Shown here: positions 9,671-50,635 of the stretch, piece after piece
Position numbering within the stretch: the first letter of the stretch is position 1
How the letters are laid out: the number at the start of each line of letters is the position of its first letter
From: Pectinatus frisingensis
GTDB lineage: Bacteria; Bacillota; Negativicutes; Selenomonadales; Selenomonadaceae
Reading direction: 5' to 3'
DNA length: 64,000 nt
NCBI RefSeq assembly: GCF_015732285.1
Contig: NZ_WIQU01000065.1
Span: 133,058 to 197,057 of the forward strand
Notes under the pieces: model-generated
What the model saw: only the letters and a program-made list of their open reading frames with translations
Databases searched by the model: none
Told to the model about the DNA's origin: nothing
Made by a program: the position numbers and the translations under genes

Positions 9671-10173
9671 AGAATATAGTTTTGATAGGTTTTATGGGAA
9701 CAGGGAAAAGCTGTGTTGGTAAATTGCTGGCGGAAAAACTTGGCTTTTCATTTATTGATACTGATTTGCTGGTCGAACAACAGGTTCAGATGACTATTCC
9801 ACAGATTTTTCAGCAGTATGGTGAAGCTTATTTTCGAGAATGTGAAAAAAAAGCGGTAAAACAAGCGGTAATGCAGTCCAGCACAGTTATAGCTACCGGT
9901 GGCGGTGTGCCATTGTTTGAGGAAAATCGTGATATTTTGCAAATAAATAGTGCTGTTATTTGTTTGCGTGCTGAGGTTAAAACGATAATGCACAGGACAA
10001 AAGGACGTAATAATCGACCACTGCTTAATTCACAAGAAGAAAAGATTCAATCACTGCTGGACGAACGGAAGCCTTTTTATGCTCAGGCGGATTTTTTAAT
10101 TGATACAGATGCTCTGTCACCATTACAAATAGTTAATGAGATAATACTATATCTGCGGAGGATGAAGAATTGA
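9667..10173 (+). CDS. aroK: Shikimate kinase
   Basis: Phosphorylates shikimate at the 3-hydroxyl with ATP. Walker A motif GFMGTGKSCVGK at residues 7-18, shikimate-binding Asp in FIDTD, the Arg of YFRECEKKA, GGGVP, and the lid Arg in GRNNRPLL. 168 residues, typical. ATG overlaps the aroC stop; the 3' end overlaps aroB. In E. coli aroK and aroB are also adjacent. Confidence 0.95.
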   Translation: MKNIVLIGFMGTGKSCVGKLLAEKLGFSFIDTDLLVEQQVQMTIPQIFQQYGEAYFRECEKKAVKQAVMQSSTVIATGGGVPLFEENRDILQINSAVICLRAEVKTIMHRTKGRNNRPLLNSQEEKIQSLLDERKPFYAQADFLIDTDALSPLQIVNEIILYLRRMKN

Positions 10174-11255
10174 AAACGGTGCGGGTTGAACTGGGAAAAA
10201 ATAGTTATGATATTCATATTGGTAATAATTTAAATAAAACGATAGAAAAATTTTTTTTACAAGGTAAATTTTCCCATATTGCGCTTTTGGTATCTGACAG
10301 TAATGTGGGTCCGCTATATGGTGATAAAATAAAAAGGGTGCTTGAAAAGGCCGGTTTTTGCGTGGTGATGTTTTTTATTAAAGCAGGAGAATCATCTAAG
10401 TCATGGGATGTAGCAAAGCAGCTTTACACTGAAGCAATTAAAAGTGGTTTAGATAGAAAATCTCCGATAGTTGCCCTTGGAGGCGGAGTCGTTGGGGATA
10501 TAACAGGATTTATTGCAGCTACTTATATGCGTGGAGTGCCATTTGTACAAATTCCGACAAGCTTATTGGCTTATGTTGATTCATCAGTAGGTGGAAAAGT
10601 TGCTATTAATCATTCAATGGGAAAAAATTTGATTGGTGCTTTTTATCAGCCTGAAGCTGTGTTTATAGATCTTGATATGATTAAAACCATGCCAAACAGG
10701 GAAATATCAACCGGATTGGCGGAAGTGATAAAATATGGATTAATTTATGATAAGGAATTTTTTGCATATATAGAAAGTCACGTTAAGGAAATTTTTGCTT
10801 TAAATAATGAGGTGCTCACATATATTACAGCCAAATCGTGCGAAATTAAGGCTGCTGTGGTAAGCAAGGATGAAAAGGAAATGGGATTGAGAGCAATCTT
10901 GAATTTCGGGCACACTATCGGACATGCTATTGAAAGGGAGACTAAATATGATGTTTATAATCATGGTGAAGCAATAGCTATTGGAATGGTAGGGGTATCA
11001 ATAATAAGCCGTGAATTAGGATTACTTGATCCGACAGTAGTACAGAAAATTCATCATATATTGGAAATATGCCATTTGCCGCAAACATGTCATGCGTGTA
11101 CTGAAGATGGGATTTATCAGGACCTTTTTCATGATAAGAAAACGATAGGAAAGAAAATAAACTGGGTATTATTGGATGAAATAGGTAAGGTACATCTGTC
11201 TGATAATGTCAGTGAACTAATAGTACGTAAAGCAATAAAATCTATATTGGCGTAA
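10170..11255 (+). CDS. aroB: 3-Dehydroquinate synthase
   Basis: NAD- and metal-dependent cyclisation of DAHP to 3-dehydroquinate. NAD-binding GGGVVGDITGFIAATYMRG, conserved PTSLLAYVDSSVGGK and GKNLIGAFYQP, and the metal ligands: Glu in AEVIKYGLI, His in NFGHTIGHA, and His in NHGEAIAIGM. 361 residues. TTG start overlapping the aroK TGA, with GCGGAGG about 10 nt upstream. Last gene of the aro operon, followed directly by a strong terminator. Confidence 0.95.
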   Translation: MKTVRVELGKNSYDIHIGNNLNKTIEKFFLQGKFSHIALLVSDSNVGPLYGDKIKRVLEKAGFCVVMFFIKAGESSKSWDVAKQLYTEAIKSGLDRKSPIVALGGGVVGDITGFIAATYMRGVPFVQIPTSLLAYVDSSVGGKVAINHSMGKNLIGAFYQPEAVFIDLDMIKTMPNREISTGLAEVIKYGLIYDKEFFAYIESHVKEIFALNNEVLTYITAKSCEIKAAVVSKDEKEMGLRAILNFGHTIGHAIERETKYDVYNHGEAIAIGMVGVSIISRELGLLDPTVVQKIHHILEICHLPQTCHACTEDGIYQDLFHDKKTIGKKINWVLLDEIGKVHLSDNVSELIVRKAIKSILA

Positions 11256-11256
11256 A

Positions 11257-11312
11257 AAAAGTGTCGTTTGAACATTAAAAAATATATTGGAATTTGTTCA
11301 AACGACACTTTT
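11257..11312. terminator. Bidirectional terminator between aroB and iadA
   Basis: Perfect 17-bp stem (11257-11273 with 11296-11312), arms containing GTGTCGTTTGAAC, with A-run and T-run on the outer sides. It serves the two convergent genes. Confidence 0.92.
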
Positions 11313-11335
11313 TATTTATAAAAATGGTTTTAGGA

Positions 11336-45290: not shown

Positions 45291-47201
45291 ATGAATTGTA
45301 AAGTATGGCAAACTATTTTTTATAGTATTGGTGTCATATTGACAGGTGTTATTTATGCCGCAGAACAAAACATATTTTTAGCATTAGCCGGTGGGATATT
45401 GGTAAATATAATTATTAGTGTCATATTGGTAAAGCGCGATAACTGCCGGGAGAAAAATCAACCGGTTGCTGAAGTGACAAAGACTCAGGAGGCAAATAAT
45501 GACTTTGGTAAAGATGTTAATCTATTGAAAGTTGCTGAAGAATTGGGATTTACAGCGCAGCAGATTCGCTGGGGAGTATCGGAATATCAGGAGGTTTTGC
45601 ACAGACTGCAAAAACTTTCTGAGGAAATAAATTTGCATAGCGGTACAAATGCAGCTCAGACTGAGGAAGCCACAGCTTCAATTGAGGAAATAGCATCTTC
45701 AGCCAGTGATGTTTATAAAGCTTCCGAAAATAGTTTTACCCAGTGTGCAAAATCTTCAAAAATCGCCTTGGAGCATCATCAGCAGATTGAAAGTATGAGC
45801 ACATCTATGTTGAATATAGTCAATACGGTGCAGGATGCTATCAATCAATTGAATAATTTGAACGCGGCTTCTGATAAAATAAAGGATTTTGTTGGGAAAA
45901 TTAGAAATATTGCCAGTCAGACTAATCTTTTGGCACTTAATGCTGCTATTGAATCAGCCCGGGCTGGTGAAAATGGAAGGGGATTTGCTGTTGTCGCTAA
46001 AGAAGTAAGAAAACTGGCAATAGAAAGCGAAACAACTACGAAGGAAGTAGAAGATATAGTCCTGGATATCACCAATAATATAACTGGTGTGACAACTACG
46101 ATAGAAAAAGGCAGTAAAAAATTACAGAATATGGAAGTGCTTGCCAAGGAATCAGCGGAGGCAATCAATGGCATAGTAAATGATGTAAAGGACATAGAAA
46201 CAAATGCGCATAATTTGTGCTCACTGTCGGATAGCCAGCGAAGCTCCACTGAACAAATTGCTAACGTTATAGAACAAATCAGCGGGTCAACTGTTAATAT
46301 TGCAGCGAATACACAGACTTCATTAGATAGTGTAACTAAACAAGAAAAGAATGTTCAAGAACTTTTTGAATATACAAAGTCTATGCTGGCTATTGCTTCA
46401 CAAGTGCAAAAAGTGGCCAGTCGTTATAAAAAACCGGATGAAATAATTTTTGGAGTCAATCCGTTCGTGTCACCTTTTGTCATTAAGGAAACATATTTGC
46501 CAATATTGGAAGAAGTTGCACACGATATCGGTTATAAGGCGAGAGTGATAATTGTTTCAAATTATGATGCACTGGGAAAGGCTATAATGGAAAATATTAT
46601 TGATGTCGGCTGGTTTTCTCCGTTTGCGTATGTTTCTACTAAGCAAAATGCTGATGTGATACCTATGGTGACGCCTGTAGTAAATAAAGCTACATCTTAT
46701 TTGGGATTCATAATCAGCAAAAAAGACAGTGGAATAAGATCAATGGATGATTTACAGGGGAAAAAGTTTGGGTTTGTTGATGAAAAATCAGCATCAGGTT
46801 ATATTTATCCTAAGGCGTTATTGATTAAAAAAGGTAAGGATCCAGACAAATTTTTGGGCGAAATTCATTTTCTTGGCAGCCATAATAAGGTCATTGAAGC
46901 AGTGCAAAATGGTATAATAGATGCGGGGGCCACTTATTCAGAAGCACTGGATCTGGCTAAAAAAAATGGTACTTTGTCTGATGCAGATATCTATCAAGTG
47001 GCACAGACAGAACCCATTCCTAAGGATGTTATCGCTGCGTCGGCTGTATTAGATAAAACTTTGGTAAAAAAATTAACGGAAGCATTTACTAAACTGAATG
47101 AGGAGCAGACACGATGCAATAAGACACATATCAATGGATTCGTAAGGTCGGACGATAGTAAGTATGACATAGTAAGAGAGGCTGCTGCTTTAGTAAAATA
47201 A
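45291..47201 (+). CDS. Chemoreceptor fused to a C-terminal PhnD-like binding domain
   Basis: 636 residues. Two close membrane helices (about 6-24 and 28-47) with almost no loop between them, then an MCP signalling domain (about 110-375; tip [38 protein letters not shown] at 206-243). Residues 385-636 form a PhnD/transferrin-type substrate-binding domain ([51 protein letters not shown]). PhnD proteins bind phosphonate or phosphite in the periplasm. With two N-terminal helices the fused domain should be cytoplasmic, suggesting sensing of an internal ligand (inference). No transport genes adjoin. ATG behind AGAGGATG. Confidence 0.85.
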
Positions 47202-48692: not shown

Positions 48693-48814
48693 TTATTATC
48701 ATTACAATAATTATTATAAAAATAGAGGATAATTAAATAAAATATTGAATTATAAGAATATACCAAATAATACATATGATATATGTACGACTACAGAAAG
48801 GAAGGCTTTATTCT

Positions 48815-50635
48815 ATGAAAACATTACAATCTATAACGGCACTCAATTCAGTAAAGACGCTGCATTCTATAAAGGGCAAGCTTATTATGACGATAGTATC
48901 AGCATCGGTTATCAGTGTCCTTTGTGTAGGAGGATTTTTTATCTATACTATTTTGGCCAACAGTGCCGCGCAGATAAAAGAGTATCGACAATCTCTGCAG
49001 GATAGTGTTGATCGAGAGCTAAAAACAGAAACGGAAGTGGCGCTGGGGGCCGTTCAGACAATATATGCCAAGCAGCAGGCGGGTATTTTGACGGAAGAAC
49101 AGGCAAAAATGCAGGCTGCCGAATTGGTGCGTAATATGCGTTATGATGATGGCAAGGGTTATTTTTGGATTGACACATATGATGGGATAAATGTAGTTTT
49201 ATTAGGGCGGGATACAGAAGGAAAATCCCGGATAGATGCAGTTGATCCAAATGGAAGACATTACATAAAGGAAATGATTGAAAATGGACGCAAAGCCGGC
49301 GGCGGATATACTGATCTGATGTTTCCTAAGCCCAATGAACAGGAACCATTACCAAAACGTAACTATACAATGAATTTTGAACCATATAAATGGGTTATAG
49401 GTACTGGCATATGGATAGATTATATTGATGGTAAAGTAGCTCAGCAGGAAGTTTATCAAAATCAAATGCTTAAAAGCAGTATTATAAAAATATTGTTATA
49501 TATGGTACTTTTACAGATAGTATTAATTGTTGGTGCAGTGTATATCAGCAGGACATTGGCAAATCCAATCAGATTTGTCACGCAAAAAATGGACATACTT
49601 GCGGGCGGTGATTTTGGCGAAGATATAGATGGGGACATTTTGGAACGTAAGGATGAAATCGGGATAATGGGCCGTTCATTAAAGAAACTACGTGATAATA
49701 TGAGAACTCTTCTGCAGAAAATTGCTGAATCAGCAGAGTATTTGGCGGCATCTTCTGAGCAGCTGACATCAAGTTCAGAACAATCGGCTACAGCCAGTCA
49801 TCAAGTGGCTGATTCAATGGTCAATGTGGCTAATTTGTGTAGTGATCAATTTACTGCAGTTGAAGGAGCGGGTAAACGAACAAGCGAATTATCAACACAT
49901 ATGCAGGACTTTATGAATGCTATCGAAGAATCAGGGCGCAATATAAAAAATACTAATGATACAGCTAAAGCGGGGAATGAAAAAGTTGCCGCTGCCATTG
50001 AAAAAATGAGTCTGATAAAAGAATCGGTAGGTCAATCAGCTGAAGTGATTAAAGGACTTGGTGAAGAATCGAAAAAAATAGGTGTTATTGTTGATACAAT
50101 TGGTAATATAGCCGGTCAGACCAACCTTTTGGCATTGAATGCAGCAATTGAGGCAGCACGTGCCGGAGAACATGGAAAAGGTTTTGCCGTTGTTGCTGAA
50201 GAGGTTAGAAAATTAGCTGAACAATCACAAACAGCAGCTGCTGAAATAGCAGGATTGATTGGTTCTATACAAAAAGAATCACAAAATGCTGTTGATGTGA
50301 TGCAAAGCGGTGTCAGTCAAGTTGAGGATGGTGTGGGAGCAGTGGATAACGCCGGTAATAGTTTTGCCGATATTGTGAATATGGTGAAACAGGTGGCGGA
50401 AAAATCTAGTGCTATGGAAAAGATTGTCAATGGACTGGCTGAAGGGGCAGGTGAAATCTCAACAGAAGTTAAGAAAATAGATACTATGAGCCGTAGTGTT
50501 TCTTCCGAGGCAGAAACAGTTTCAGCAGCGACTGAAGAACAGACGGCTTCGATGAATGAAATAGCCGATTCCAGTAAATCCTTGGCTGAAATGGCACAGG
50601 ATTTGCAAAATGCCGTAAATAAATTTAAAATTTAA
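48815..50635 (+). CDS. Methyl-accepting chemotaxis protein with sCache sensor
   Basis: 606 residues. Membrane helix about 22-45, single Cache (sCache_2) sensor about 50-200 ([50 protein letters not shown]), second helix about 213-235, HAMP about 236-290 and MCP hairpin with tip [41 protein letters not shown]. sCache_2 receptors usually bind small carboxylates such as propionate or pyruvate. It ends VNKFKI like the receptor at 24712. ATG at 48815 behind AAGGAAGG. Confidence 0.93.

Follow-up and report, generated by a model that had tools for sequence, protein, structure and literature searches.

Chemoreceptors with cytoplasmic sensors are known in several forms, among them Aer (PAS), TlpD (CZB) and HemAT (globin), and taxis that depends on metabolism is usually attributed to redox or PTS sensing. 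To our knowledge, none of these three receptors has a periplasmic-binding-protein fold as its sensor. ArrX and AioX, the arsenate/arsenite sensors, use a PhnD-type domain for signalling, not transport; they are separate binding proteins serving two-component systems. The PacP / sCache_PC3 chemoreceptors carry their sCache domain outside the membrane. They bind the phosphorylated C3 compounds glycerol-3-phosphate (G3P), DHAP, GAP and 3PG and are found mainly in plant-associated bacteria (PMC12395807, Genome Biol 2025), and the chemotactic response of E. coli to glycerol requires glpK and proceeds via the PTS (PMC4996493).

The window, that is, the whole stretch of 64,000 nucleotides from Pectinatus frisingensis that we analysed, contains at 45291-47201 (+ strand, as for all features below) an open reading frame of 636 aa with an ATG start, which encodes an MCP-PhnD fusion chemoreceptor. 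Like the PacP / sCache_PC3 proteins, it would be a receptor for phosphorylated C3 compounds, if our guess at its ligand is right; it differs in having a C-terminal, predicted intracellular PhnD-type domain where they have an sCache ligand-binding domain. With Aer, TlpD and HemAT it has in common an MCP with a putative intracellular sensor, in anchored or soluble forms. E. coli PhnD, PtxB, HtxB and GpxB share its fold family and oxyanion head pocket, and its Glu/Asp tail pair is PhnD-like; however, they are exported parts of ABC transporters, whereas the fusion lacks an export signal, has no ABC genes alongside it in the window and is joined to an MCP. ArrX and AioX, PhnD-type proteins that appear among the solved-structure matches of the window domain, are neither fused to a receptor nor cytoplasmic, while the window domain is fused and probably cytoplasmic. 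Glycerol taxis in E. coli is comparable in its dependence on GlpK, but there the signal is relayed through the PTS (PMC4996493), whereas the fusion would read the metabolite directly.

The protein consists of an MCP signalling domain (PF00015; 45822..46286, residues 178-332; E 6.6e-38, 130.7 bits against a cut-off of 34.6) followed by a PhnD-type substrate-binding domain (PF12974, Phosphonate-bd; 46449..47165, residues 387-625; E 5.1e-56, 190.2 bits against 27), whose match spans the full length of the model. Both exceed the curated cut-offs and bear out the domain order read in an earlier note on this DNA. The same note had described two tight N-terminal helices. Two hydrophobic stretches are indeed present, separated by a turn of three residues (45306..45428, residues 6-24 and 28-46), but the first is weak by hydropathy (mean Kyte-Doolittle 1.4, versus 2.73 for the second), and an automatic scan at a threshold of 1.5 counts one transmembrane segment. 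Among the 12 Pfam families listed for the protein at E up to 1 there is no HAMP, PAS or Cache domain, and the lack of a Cache domain led us to reject an identity as sCache_PC3 receptor. The MCP methylation-site consensus is matched twice, in overlapping positions, at 45651..45701 (residues 121-137). The 16-residue hairpin tip (45924..45971, residues 212-227) is presumably the region contacting CheA and CheW, as in the family; its core motif NLL[AS]LN occurs in 35 of 36 class proteins, the window's included, and the remaining one is cut by a contig end.

Hydropathy scanning of the fusion family (61 sequences, reduced to 60 by leaving out the fragment L070) found two N-terminal hydrophobic segments in 42 proteins, one in 6 (the window's among these, by threshold) and none in 12, the last having a full stop-to-stop frame without a 19-residue stretch above 1.34 in the first 170 residues. 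After residue 130, no transmembrane segment exceeds the threshold of 1.5 in any of the 60. CheA can be reached only by an MCP hairpin in the cytoplasm, and no transmembrane segment follows that hairpin; the PhnD domain is therefore predicted to lie inside the cell, in agreement with the cytoplasmic placement proposed previously. The spacing between hairpin tip and PhnD domain is constant in 47 of 60 fusions by a motif measure; the other 13 values comprise seven motif misses and six that differ by at most seven residues. By sequence, the nearest solved structures of the window domain are PtxB, ArrX and HtxB, with AioX also among the best, and single-sequence structure prediction of the isolated domain gave a mean pLDDT of 37.8, too low for reading a closed ligand pocket. 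An ordinary ABC-transporter substrate-binding protein was rejected as an explanation, since the domain is C-terminal to the MCP hairpin, no transmembrane segment lies between them and no transporter pair is nearby (none among the six neighbours of the window fusion scanned with Pfam). Judged by eye, several stand-alone relatives (e.g., L134, L137, L139) do have both an export signal (signal peptide or lipobox) and permease and ATPase genes nearby.

Using the PhnD domain alone as query, we searched 380 genomes of the class and then 398 genomes drawn from the phylum for the MCP-PhnD order, as the earlier note had proposed. Fusions were found in 45 class genomes at 43-66% identity (the two Pectinatus copies apart), the next PF12974 matches reaching 31% or less, and in 22 phylum genomes at 44-54%, the next matches reaching 37% or less. 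Two of the latter genomes were already counted, which leaves 20 new ones and a total of 65 carriers, and a clean identity gap separates the fusions (43-66% beyond the genus) from other PF12974 matches (37% or less). A contig of Pectinatus brassicae bears a 99% identical copy; given this copy and the 65 carriers, the window fusion is neither a chance product nor an artefact of the window. The window's genome has eight PF12974 matches, of which the fusion is by far the strongest. Fusion frames measure 565-696 aa, apart from incomplete ones (G016 is cut by a contig end, G281 is split, and the G709 match ends at position 211 of 257), and G258 has two copies. Evidence for their MCP part comes from the tip motif in the 35 class proteins and from PF00015 over cut-off (Pfam) in the proteins of the window, L112, L121 and L128; in the rest it is deduced from frame length and alignment. 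The architecture is therefore a family spread over the phylum and not a one-off. In a tree of 60 fusion PhnD domains and 18 stand-alone proteins all fusions lie on one side of a branch with support 99/96, and the fusion state requires one change in 98% of bootstrap trees; the PhnD domains of the fusions form one group.

Among the stand-alone proteins, the nearest to the fusions in the midpoint-rooted tree are L150, L035 and L037 (90/83, on long branches). L150:5894-6826 adjoins what appear by eye to be two-component and molybdopterin oxidoreductase genes, a setting that hints at a signalling ancestor. In the G281 fusion (L070, about 9703-11327) the reading frame breaks off within the PhnD domain and a second, overlapping frame takes over, the sign of either a broken gene or a sequencing error. 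The fusion copy of G022 (L033 / L069) is divergent, with an identity of 43% and a branch length of 1.38; it carries Phe at position 551 and Glu at position 579 and may have another ligand or be decaying. A match was present in 785 plasmid records, none reaching 60% identity; the 15 listed have identities of 27-32%, and most carry an annotation as binding protein. Two scans of viral contigs found no relatives. Among the papers listed by our search of the open-access literature, none dealt with a PhnD domain at the C-terminus of an MCP; the architecture may well be present in domain databases already.

Pocket positions were assigned by alignment to E. coli PhnD and counted over the 60 fusions, with roles taken from PMC5700983 and PMC12718374. 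Y425 (46563..46565; PhnD Y47) is Tyr in 59 of 60, with one gap, and Y470 (46698..46700; PhnD Y93 and the hinge Tyr of PtxB) in all. The STS oxyanion motif (PhnD S127-T128-S129) corresponds to S500-A501-S502 (46788..46796), with both Ser in 60/60 and the central Ala in 57 (Thr in three). H531 (46881..46883), the His of the STS-H motif, is kept in all 60; it falls on the PtxB His and, in a larger alignment, on the PhnD His, being one column off in the pairwise PhnD alignment. Both the profile match and the oxyanion pocket (Tyr, S-x-S and His, at 60/60 or 59/60) thus agree with PF12974, and with the exception of Ala for Thr at 501 these head residues speak for the phosphorus-type ligand suggested before. 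As to the tail, E551 (46941..46943; PhnD E177) is Glu in 51 fusions, Asp in four, Thr in four and Phe in one, and D579 (47025..47027; PhnD D205, the tail-binding or cap position) is Asp in 59 and Glu in one. The head residues are largely shared by 16 stand-alone proteins, in which positions 549, 551 and 579 vary widely, whereas these are nearly fixed in the fusions. A single kind of tail pocket is thus maintained across the fusions, and this speaks for binding of one particular ligand, probably with a phosphorus oxyanion head.

The tail pair is PhnD-like, neither GpxB-like (Arg/Thr) nor PtxB-like (Tyr cap). A PtxB-type phosphite binder was rejected on the Asp (D579, 59/60) in place of the capping Tyr (Y203 in Ps_PtxB, Y208 in Te_PtxB) that makes PtxB phosphite-specific (PMC5700983). 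GpxB is a G3P-binding protein of the PhnD type; at the positions equated with PhnD E177/D205 in PMC12718374 it has Arg and Thr (R223 and T247), the fusions Glu and Asp, and an identity as GpxB-type glycerol-phosphate binder was likewise rejected. With two acids in the tail pocket, hydroxyls or an amine would probably be better accommodated than a carboxylate.

Gene neighbourhoods were compared over 60 loci (60 stretches from 59 genomes plus the window, L070 left out) with genes called as longest ORFs; the carriers G006, G008, G013, G016 and G043 lie outside this set. A glp, dha or lower-glycolysis gene stands within seven genes of the fusion in 27/60 loci and 12/21 families: f8 (9/10 loci), f9, f11, f14, f19, f25 (2/3), f71 (1/2, glpP only), f84 (2), f96 (2), f106, f124 (5) and f148. 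The linked loci show at least five layouts: glpP-glpF-glpK-glpA-glpB-glpC-[fusion]-pyk-cggR-gap-pgk-tpi-gpmI-eno; gap-pgk-tpi-gpmI-eno-[fusion]-glpA-glpB-glpC-pyk; glpP-[fusion]-glpF-glpK-glpA-glpB-glpC-pyk; glpC-pyk...eno-[fusion]; and glpK, a G3P-oxidase-like gene, a second flavoprotein and DUF1667 followed by [fusion] and dhaK-dhaL. In the last, a sigma-54 activator precedes the fusion in 6/8 loci, dhaM is present in 5/8 and glpP lies between in one. Names come from NCBIfam and Pfam for samples (L060, L053 eno, L112; glpP of L060, L112, L113, L128) and elsewhere from similarity or clustering, with pgk, tpi and gpmI named by eye. GlpF falls into the MIP channel family but short of the subfamily cut-off, and the G3P-oxidase-like protein likewise does not reach its own. 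The profile-tested GlpP of four linked loci is annotated as a glycerol-3-phosphate-responsive antiterminator. The remaining 33 loci, the window's included, have no glp, dha or glycolysis neighbour, and nine families are unlinked (f1, f6, f17, f28, f56, f79, f86, f112 and f119; some contigs are short). In f1, the window's family, no locus examined has a glycerol-type neighbour. The window's genome does hold a glpF-glpK-glpA-glpB-glpC-dhaK-dhaL-dhaM cluster on another stretch (L151), not beside the fusion (GlpB, GlpK and GlpA over cut-off, the rest named by eye); in other genomes, genes of this sort stand around the fusion.

In a parsimony analysis on a quick fusion tree, the linkage requires 8 changes (shuffled mean 20) and the Fitch root is 'absent', which gives no support for an ancestral glp linkage; it must have arisen repeatedly or been lost many times. 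As a control, the places of MCPs were compared by eye with those of above-cut-off glpK genes in eight genomes that consist of one or two contigs. In seven of them a glpK stands at most 15 kb from the fusion, and among the MCPs listed none but the fusion is that near to one (the fusion places in G709 and G645 come from the phylum search); in the eighth, G270, the fusion is beside glpABC instead. GlpA (TIGR03377) exceeds its cut-off in 131/380 class genomes, comprising 42/45 carriers versus 89/335 non-carriers (Fisher odds ratio 38.7, p 1.4e-18, a value that overstates the case as kinship is ignored), and the three carriers without GlpA (G178, G302 and G314) have GlpK. CheA (PF02895 over cut-off) is present in 24/25 carriers tested, the window's genome included, so that a chemotaxis output of the fusion is plausible. 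The gene directly upstream of the fusion at L112:11464-13185 codes for a sigma-54 activator in which Pfam finds PAS and, at the N-terminus, PTS-HPr; it is perhaps a DhaR-like regulator, and clustering places similar genes upstream in L114, L117, L118, L119 and L125.

In many families the genes around the fusion suggest a tie to the metabolism of glycerol and triose phosphates, not to phosphonate, phosphite or phosphate. We therefore suggest, as a reading with the balance only just on its side, that the fusion is an intracellular sensor of a phosphorylated C3 intermediate, most likely G3P and next DHAP, which feeds CheA and so mediates metabolism-dependent glycerol taxis. The receptor would be anchored in the membrane with its sensor domain inside the cell, where the PhnD-type domain would close around G3P or DHAP. 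The domain follows on the end of the MCP coiled coil without a break, so that its closure would alter the packing of the membrane-near helices and thereby CheA activity, and the cell would steer by the amount of glycerol being phosphorylated. The architecture, the cytoplasmic position, the conserved pocket, the single fusion group, the glp/dha linkage in other families and the presence of CheA are the sequence-based parts of this model; the ligand, the helix-packing step, the response as attractant and not repellent, and the sharing of the ligand by the window copy despite its lack of glp neighbours are conjectural. G3P is favoured because GlpP, which is annotated as responding to it, occurs in several clusters, and DHAP because the GlpABC and DhaKLM pathways converge on it. 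Of the earlier proposal that an intracellular phosphorus compound or related anion is relayed to chemotaxis, the phosphorus-type ligand is supported and the chemotactic output plausible, but the neighbourhoods favour a glycerol or triose phosphate over phosphonate, phosphite and phosphate.

Against a C3 phosphate it must be held that 33 of the 60 loci, including that of the window, lack the linkage, that GlpA also occurs in 89 class genomes without a fusion, and that the tail pair of the fusions is not that of the G3P binder GpxB but the one, E177/D205 in PhnD, that holds the amine of 2-aminoethylphosphonate (2-AEP) according to PMC12718374. The pair expected of a PhnD-type 2-AEP binder is thus found at E551 and D579, and the ligand might be an intracellular (amino)phosphonate or a phosphoethanolamine-like compound, with incidental glycerol neighbours. 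We regard this as unlikely, given the glycerol linkage in 12/21 families and a Glu at 551 that is not strictly kept (51/60); moreover, inspection of fusion neighbours by eye, most of them unannotated, revealed no genes for phosphonate use. Right next to the fusion one often finds eno, pyk or dhaK, the last with a PEP-dependent product, which could suggest a lower-glycolytic intermediate (PEP or 3-phosphoglycerate) that reports carbon flux or PTS state rather than glycerol; but its carboxylate would have to face the acid pair, and glp genes are present too in most linked loci, which makes such a ligand rather unlikely as well.

The probability that the ligand is inorganic phosphate, phosphite or a related oxyanion, as formerly proposed, appears low. 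The best solved-structure relatives do include phosphite and hypophosphite carriers besides ArrX and AioX, and yet the capping Tyr that would make the pocket phosphite-specific is replaced by Asp (PMC5700983), an argument tempered by HtxB, which also has Asp there (PMC6629693); no phosphate-starvation genes were noticed beside the fusions, most of whose neighbours are unannotated. Phosphite, phosphate and GpxB-like readings were ranked below a C3 phosphate. The near-invariance of the head pocket in 60 sequences from 21 families is hard to reconcile with a PhnD domain that has lost its ligand and now serves to dock an enzyme or a transporter, or to drive a Che pathway not concerned with motility. 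The C-terminal portion of an MCP can act as a regulatory docking site, one of the 25 carriers has no CheA match, and the divergent G022 copy has altered tail residues, but we consider this equally improbable.

If G3P or DHAP sensing by the fusion holds, the phylum would possess receptors with an inward-turned, transporter-type binding protein that steer directly by cytoplasmic G3P or DHAP, a broader claim that we put forward tentatively, at somewhat under an even chance. It would mean a receptor-based, ligand-specific metabolic taxis in place of redox or PTS sensing, and a periplasmic-binding-protein fold acting as an intracellular chemotaxis sensor. With a receptor that binds one named cytoplasmic intermediate, metabolism-dependent taxis could be put to a direct test on a single purified domain and a single mutant, and the receptor's domain would be a ready protein scaffold for measuring triose phosphate in cells.

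In the window, the gene before the fusion is of the phosphoribosyltransferase type, and the gene after it belongs to the nitroreductase family (Pfam). From the flanking gaps of 330 and 212 bases the fusion gene is perhaps its own transcription unit; a promoter and terminator scan around it gave a number of sites not above that of shuffles. The third gene downstream (48776-50635) encodes an ordinary sCache_2 chemoreceptor. In other loci of the window's family (L067-L069, L071, L072, L103-L110), two related genes of ~400 aa precede the fusion, mostly accompanied, where the contig reaches, by a ~1400-aa gene that we take, from its start, to be of the dehydratase-activator type.
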